Origin: Liolophura sinensis
Taxonomy: Eukaryota; Mollusca; Polyplacophora; Chitonida; Chitonidae
Length of the DNA stretch: 64,000 bases
Direction: 5' to 3'
Assembly (NCBI RefSeq): GCF_032854445.1
Contig: NC_088305.1
Span: forward strand, 7,753,606-7,817,605
Of the stretch, positions 48,701 through 64,000 are shown in pieces (within the stretch, counting starts at the first letter, position 1; every line of letters starts with the position of its first letter). The notes beneath the pieces are model-generated. The model saw nothing but the letters and a program-made list of their open reading frames with translations, did not search any database and was not told the DNA's origin. The position numbers were made by a program, and so were the translations under genes.

Positions 48701-63149
<14,449 letters not shown>

Positions 63150-63160
<11 letters not shown>

Positions 63161-64000
63161 GTAAGTATGACCAATCAACCATCAGTTGTGTAGTATGACC
63201 AATCGATCTTCATTTACTGAGTACACATGTAAGTATGACCCATCGACTTTCAGTTATGTAGTAAGTATGACCCATTGACTTTCAGTTATGTAGTAAATAT
63301 GACCAGTCGGCCTTCAGTTGTGTAGTATGACCAATTGACCTTCCGTTGTGTAGTAAGTATGACCAATCGACCTTCAGTTGTGTAGTAAGTATGACCAATT
63401 GACCTTCAGTTGTGTAGTAAATATGACCAATTGACCTTCAGTTGTGTAGTAAGTATGACCAATTGACCTTCAGTTGTGTAGTAAGTATGACCAGTCGACC
63501 TTCAGTTGTGTAGTAAGTATGACCAATTGACCTTCAGTTGTGTAGTAAGTATGACCAATTGACCTTCAGTTGTGTAGTAAGTATGACCAATTGACCTTCA
63601 GTTGTGTAGTAAGTTTGACCAATTGACCTTCAGTTGTGTAGTAAGTTTGACCAATTGACCTTCAGTTGTGTAGTAAGTATGACCAATTGACCTTCAGTTG
63701 TGTAGTAAGTTTGACCAATTGACCTTCAGTTGTGTAGTAAGTATGACCAATTGACCTTCAGTTGTGTAGTAAGTATGACCAATCGACTTTCAGTTGTGCA
63801 GTAAGTATGACCAATTGACCTTCAGTTGTGTAGTAAGTATGACCAATTGACCTTCAGTTGTGTAGTAAGTTTGACCAATTGACCTTCAGTTGTGTAGTAT
63901 GACCAATCGACTTTCAGTTGTGTAGTAAGTATGAACAATCGACTGTCATTTGTGTAGTAAGTATGACCAATTGACCTTCAGTTGTGTAGTAAGTATGACC
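63150..64000. repeat. 32-bp minisatellite starting on the exon 14/intron junction
   Basis: Unit GTAAGTATGACCAATTGACC plus TTCAGTTGTGTA, about 26 copies and running off the window. The first copy overlaps the exon end TTATGTA and the donor GTAAGTATG. Confidence 0.92.

Follow-up and report, generated by a model that had tools for sequence, protein, structure and literature searches.

The minisatellite of human IFI6 (6-16, G1P3) was reportedly found by Turri, Cuin and Porter in 1995 to give the gene multiple splice donor sites. In an excerpt of PMC4526556, two downstream repeat units of IFI6 are described as acting as donors, giving rise to three mRNAs. A second system is intron gain by tandem genomic duplication, in which a new intron arises from the duplication of an exonic AGGT (reviewed in PMC3443670); PMC4974935 deals with the same topic. 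Judging mostly by titles and the starts of abstracts, we found no report in the open literature of genome-wide recurrence of arrays built from exon/intron junctions, and nothing closer to the present case than work citing the 1995 IFI6 paper (an excerpt of PMC2915984 included). Human IFI6 is the known precedent for the locus described here, and the mechanism here is ordinary.

We analyzed a window of 64,000 nucleotides (the whole stretch of DNA under study; C11:7753606-7817605) in a 609-Mb genome, in which a 32-bp tandem array begins at the 3' end of an exon. Our data indicate that this array is very probably a minisatellite born from the exon/intron junction itself, which has lengthened on its intron side through slippage or unequal exchange and is tolerated as neutral. 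The likeness to IFI6, as excerpted in PMC4526556, lies in minisatellite repeats that would supply multiple donor sites: the first unit is an exon/donor junction, and several units (22/27) match the donor consensus. The focal array differs from that of IFI6 in its 32-bp unit (12 bp in IFI6) and in the stop codon met on reading through it. Donor use in IFI6 is seen in transcripts, and for the focal junction we infer transcript use from the reading frame and from paralogs. The locus also resembles intron gain by tandem genomic duplication in that a segment with splice-site sequence appears to have been duplicated in tandem. It differs in outcome, since the old intron is kept and lengthened and no new intron arises at an intronless site.

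The gene lies on the plus strand and encodes C8 and TIL domains; an EGF-like match upstream is barely above the Pfam cut-off, and a Sushi match upstream falls under it. Exon 14 (62990-63160, +; 171 nt), which carries a number taken from the count of an earlier, sequence-only reading of this DNA, encodes most of a C8 domain. Its last codons are TTA TGT A, so that it ends with the last Cys codon of the C8 domain plus one nucleotide (phase 1), and they are followed by the 5' splice site GTAAGTATG (63161-63169, +). Splicing exon 14 in silico to exon 15, the TIL exon that starts at L001 position 1156, ~1 kb past the window, leaves the frame open (...NVSLC-MLSCPGGQ...), and the joined peptide matches both domains in Pfam (C8, E = 4e-14; TIL, E = 1.3e-11).

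A genome search for the C8 family yielded 31 matches; 30 of them were retrieved and compared, with a donor called where a Cys codon plus one base was followed by a donor-like GT, in frame and near the end of the match. By this rule 29 of the 30 C8 loci share one codon position for the donor (28 of 29 when the focal locus is set aside; L024 is the exception), and these 29 loci are not independent, several being near-identical duplicates on contig C4. The donors are mostly GTAAG or GTGAG, with GTATGT in L017 and L026 and GTCAGT in L020. Because the splice to exon 15 is in frame and the donor position is shared by 29 of 30 C8 exons, we take 63160 to be the genuine end of exon 14, in agreement with the sequence-only reading, which had placed the exon end at TTATGTA plus donor. 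The junction also appears to be old, since its position is common to these loci. Creation of a new intron by the duplication was considered and rejected, as the donor occupies that position in 28 of the 29 other C8 loci.

While the exon end is common to C8 exons, the array is not. TRF reported an array starting at the C8 junction at one of the 30 loci, the focal one. The same gene contains an earlier C8 module (L021) and a later one (L002); in the earlier exon, the C8 match up to the exon end (58227-58380, +) is followed by a GTAAGT that occupies the shared codon position, with no array over that junction according to TRF. We also aligned 33 donor junctions to their own introns. The focal junction scored 54 against its intron, where none of the 32 other junctions exceeded 22, and it was the only one of the 33 to beat all others in this way.

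TRF placed the 32-bp array at 63229-64000 (24.4 copies, 92% matches). Anchored by hand, it comprises 27 head-to-tail units, as in a minisatellite, running on the plus strand from 63154 through the end of the window at 64000, with the last unit ending near 64013, ~13 bp outside; the sequence-only reading had estimated about 26 or more. Unit 1 (63154-63185, +) consists of 7 exonic and 25 intronic bases, and units 2 and 3 (63186-63253, +) are irregular. GTAAGT is intact in 22 of the 27 units, the real donor included, and four of these read GTAAGTTTG. It is missing from the other five: in unit 2 and in the 28-bp units 6 (63318-63345, +) and 24 (63890-63917, +) through a 4-bp loss at that place (GTAGTATG), and in two more units that read GTAAAT. 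The description of near-consensus donors in tandem stands, with the small correction that units 2 and 3 are irregular. Among the 23 regular 32-bp units, units 1, 4, 5, 25 and 27 show three to six differences from the consensus and the rest zero to two, nine of them being identical to it, as expected of an array turning over in its interior. The exact 16-mer TTGTGTAGTAAGTATG has 14 matches in the genome, all inside the array. Next to the 32-bp array, on its 3' side, lies an AT-rich 61-bp array with a different sequence.

Two further observations concern the array and its surroundings. Most units (63154-64013) end in TTGACCTTCAG or a close variant, so that their layout resembles a branch point plus acceptor, 7 nt and a donor; the array may thereby amount to a series of very small pseudo-exons. 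The window is dense in minisatellites between 4463 and 60497, with units of 20-70 bp (79 partly overlapping TRF rows in the 64 kb).

Unit 1 matches the array consensus at 28 of 32 positions, including 22 of the 26 outside GTAAGT and six of the seven exonic sites. As controls, 37 other GTAAGT sites (in the window before 62990, on both strands) matched at no more than 10 of the 26 positions outside GTAAGT, and 28 other C8 donors at no more than 13. Because unit 1 reaches 22/26 where these 37 sites reach at most 10, it is homologous to the array, and the array was seeded at the exon 14 junction; the sequence-only reading had likewise called the real junction unit one. Units 4 and 5 carry the exon's TTATGTA, and the other interior regular 32-bp units have G at the variable site. 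The exon-side state therefore looks the older one, which points to a direction from exon to array.

Whether donor copies are kept is tested more clearly by related arrays on contig C4 than by variation within the focal array. In L016, a probably VWD-like exon upstream of a C8 exon ends in CATTTCCA with GTAAGTTG directly across the boundary, and is followed by a junction-derived array (L016:595-840) of seven units including the junction, five of them with GTRAGT, at unit spacings of 34 and 36. L086 is a paralog that shares the exon end and donor of L016 (ungapped alignment of 176 bases); GTRAGT survives in one of its 12 recognised units, namely the first, which is the real donor. In L085, of the same gene family, GTRAGT is present in 1 of 26 template matches, some of which are spurious, and the exon was not found in the piece fetched. 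In this family the donor copies decay and the array stays.

Junction-derived arrays occur at other genes too. Tandem arrays containing four donor words gave 416 (GTAAGTAT), 973, 358 and 746 hits, for which about 100 places were listed, mostly on contig C1. Among the matches listed, we fetched 53 of 60 clusters (20/24 for GTAAGTAT, 13/13 for GTGAGTAT, and 20/23 for GTAAGTTT and GTGAGTTT together), and 5 of these 53 sampled arrays (L036, L039, L043, L056 and L059) have units containing 10-33 bases of an exon end, with exon calls made by eye and unblinded. Their first units match the TRF consensus at 36/41, 35/35, 32/32, 46/47 and 32/35 positions, respectively, whereas the best placements within the 600 bases upstream reach 16 to 22 matches. 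Like the focal array, these five and the L016/L086 pair have units that span an exon end and its donor, with the junction as first unit; they differ from it in lying at other exons, with units of 32-47 bp that include 10-33 exonic bases.

Three of the five exons resemble known proteins in searches of PDB sequences: L043 a uridine phosphorylase (E = 5.8e-10, residues 1-54 of 55), L059 a PRPP-synthetase-associated protein (E = 5.6e-21, residues 2-58 of 59) and L056 a glutamate receptor (E = 1.2e-12, residues 15-72 of 87). The L056 alignment stops before the repeated stretch, which continues in the same open frame. The exon calls at L036 and L039 are based on an open frame and an acceptor, their matches to PDB sequences being at chance level (E = 0.35 and 0.19), and Pfam returned nothing at E = 1 for the exon pieces of L036, L039, L040, L043 and L047. 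Three weaker arrays (L054, L074 and L081) start at or beside a probable donor and take in few exonic bases, if any; PDB sequences gave a weak match for L081 (E = 0.41) and none for L074. At L049 and L060 the array reaches the end of the fetched piece and its 5' edge lies outside, and the third of the samples, with 20 arrays, contained none that qualified fully. At L043 (C1:86961435-86963300) the exon end recurs in ~13 copies of a 32-bp unit with GTAAGTATGG, and at L056 (C1:6222000-6223300) 33 exonic bases are repeated in a 47-bp array with the donor GTGAGTATC.

Within the focal gene, an acceptor junction is also repeated. The junction of the exon that starts at L001 position 5052 recurs upstream, its best copy matching at 29 of 34 bases across the junction with a score of 43, compared with at most 29 in 300 shuffles. 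This case sits at the far end of an array of 49-bp units (L001:4741-5085; C11:7822240-7822584), which include the acceptor and the start of the exon and bear CAGGATCCGCAGATTTC or a variant of it. Eroded copies of ~65 bp start at the donor of exon 17 (L001:4300-4460), a weak case whose score was reached by 1 in 1000 shuffles. The exon 17 donor and most acceptors were scored against shuffles, as the cross-junction control (top control score 90) was unusable there because neighbouring exons lie within the searched stretch.

Two ideas about these arrays were dropped. An excess of donor-word arrays could not be established, as the words vary too much: GTAAGTAT gave fewer tandem pattern hits than its reversed word (866) and is also the rarer of the two singly (27,222 vs 40,025), yet hand-counted array clusters over the whole of contig C1 number 21 vs 7. 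In the first 57.06 Mb of C1 there are 10 clusters for GTAAGTAT, 11 for GTGAGTAT, 5 for GTAAGTTT and 7 for GTGAGTTT, compared with 2 and 10 for the control words TATGAATG and ATAGTGAT, the latter occurring 21,600 times singly. Counting against the neutral reading, the 21 vs 7 for GTAAGTAT may reflect arrays being born or retained preferentially when they contain donor words, although the excess is absent for other words. The second idea concerned repeat periods: 32 in the focal array and 41, 35, 32, 47 and 35 in the five junction arrays identified first, all of them 2 mod 3. This was tested on new donor words set beforehand, two of the three named words being run; no fully qualifying new array turned up in that sample, and two weaker donor-edge arrays have periods of 33 and 27, both 0 mod 3. 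We dropped the rule as post hoc, and L016, found by another route, is spaced at 34 and 36.

If the array did not derive from the junction, it could be an independent intronic minisatellite that now abuts the exon and resembles the junction by chance. The region is indeed rich in minisatellites, as its 79 TRF rows indicate, but chance resemblance to an unrelated array was rejected on the 22/26 match of unit 1 outside the donor hexamer, which includes six of the seven exonic bases, and the exon-like TTATGTA of units 4 and 5 speaks against it as well; we regard this origin as extremely improbable unless exon and array were secondarily converted. A separate matter is whether the extra donors act. 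Over 12 nt, fifteen copies match the real donor exactly, with equal matrix scores and equal computed U1 pairing (-8.2 kcal/mol). Compared with 28 other C8 donors, the real donor falls inside their spread both of U1 pairing (-2.1 to -11.8 kcal/mol) and of scores in a matrix built from those 28. Local sequence alone would not separate the real donor from these 15 copies. Together with the 22 units that keep GTAAGT, and with the human IFI6 transcripts that use downstream units as donors in the excerpt of PMC4526556, this would favor the donor slippage raised in the sequence-only reading, in which downstream units are partly used, lengthening exon 14 in 32-nt blocks and leading to nonsense-mediated decay. 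Such slippage could be passive or a regulated damping of the gene, and either would be compatible with a neutral origin. Against it, a transcript that continues beyond the real donor enters unit 2 and meets an in-frame TGA (63196-63198, +): of the 21 downstream GTAAGT donors, seven were spliced in silico and all seven carry the TGA, and the other 14 lie beyond it. Use of downstream donors would therefore be disruptive, amounting to loss of function, and donor copies are nearly all gone from the paralogous L086 array. We consider measurable slippage possible, if rather doubtful.

A further proposal, in line with the titration of U1 snRNP suggested in the sequence-only reading, is that the row of U1 sites is kept as a decoy or for telescripting, recruiting U1 snRNP to protect or delay processing of the intron. 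Many strong U1-complementary sites do stand at the start of this intron, but no such array exists at the 29 other C8 loci, and donors have been lost from 5 of 27 units here and from 11 of 12 in L086, where GTRAGT was scored. In 21 regular interior units the hexamer shows two differences and no significant extra conservation (permutation over sites, P = 0.28, leaving out units 1, 2, 3, 6, 24 and 27, three of which had lost the donor). As descriptive figures, the donor 9-mer has 0.33 differences per site vs 0.91 for the rest; lower variability would also be expected of a selected donor and to that extent counts against the neutral reading, and weak constraint on the donors may exist. With these losses and this P value, we did not find donors maintained by selection, the titration proposal was not supported, and a decoy function is very improbable.

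We therefore return to a minisatellite born from the junction and tolerated as neutral. The first step would have been a tandem duplication of ~32 bp that took in the last bases of exon 14 together with the 5' splice site, and copy number would then have grown into the intron, presumably through slippage or unequal exchange. The duplication would have been tolerated because, at the outermost copy, an intact exon still meets an intact donor; splicing probably uses this first donor, the extra copies would be removed together with the intron, and the extra donors would have little effect. Of the possibilities raised in the sequence-only reading, the one that fits best is a neutral relic left by duplication that began at the junction, in view of the donor losses here (5/27) and in L086 (11/12) and the recurrence at other genes.

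More speculatively, exon/intron junctions in minisatellite-rich genomes may be captured repeatedly as founding units, on both donor and acceptor sides, creating a lasting, length-variable reservoir of tandem pseudo-splice sites that alters splicing efficiency between individuals and occasionally supplies new exon ends, an extension that we think unlikely. The finding is of some interest in that it recurs within a single genome and provides a natural setting in which to test how donors are chosen. Junction arrays are natural experiments with up to two dozen like donors, only the first of which lies beside the exon; if transcripts use the first donor alone, then position or exon context decides, and not site strength. 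Their recurrence also suggests that a simple neutral process can lengthen introns from their ends and let cryptic splice sites accumulate.
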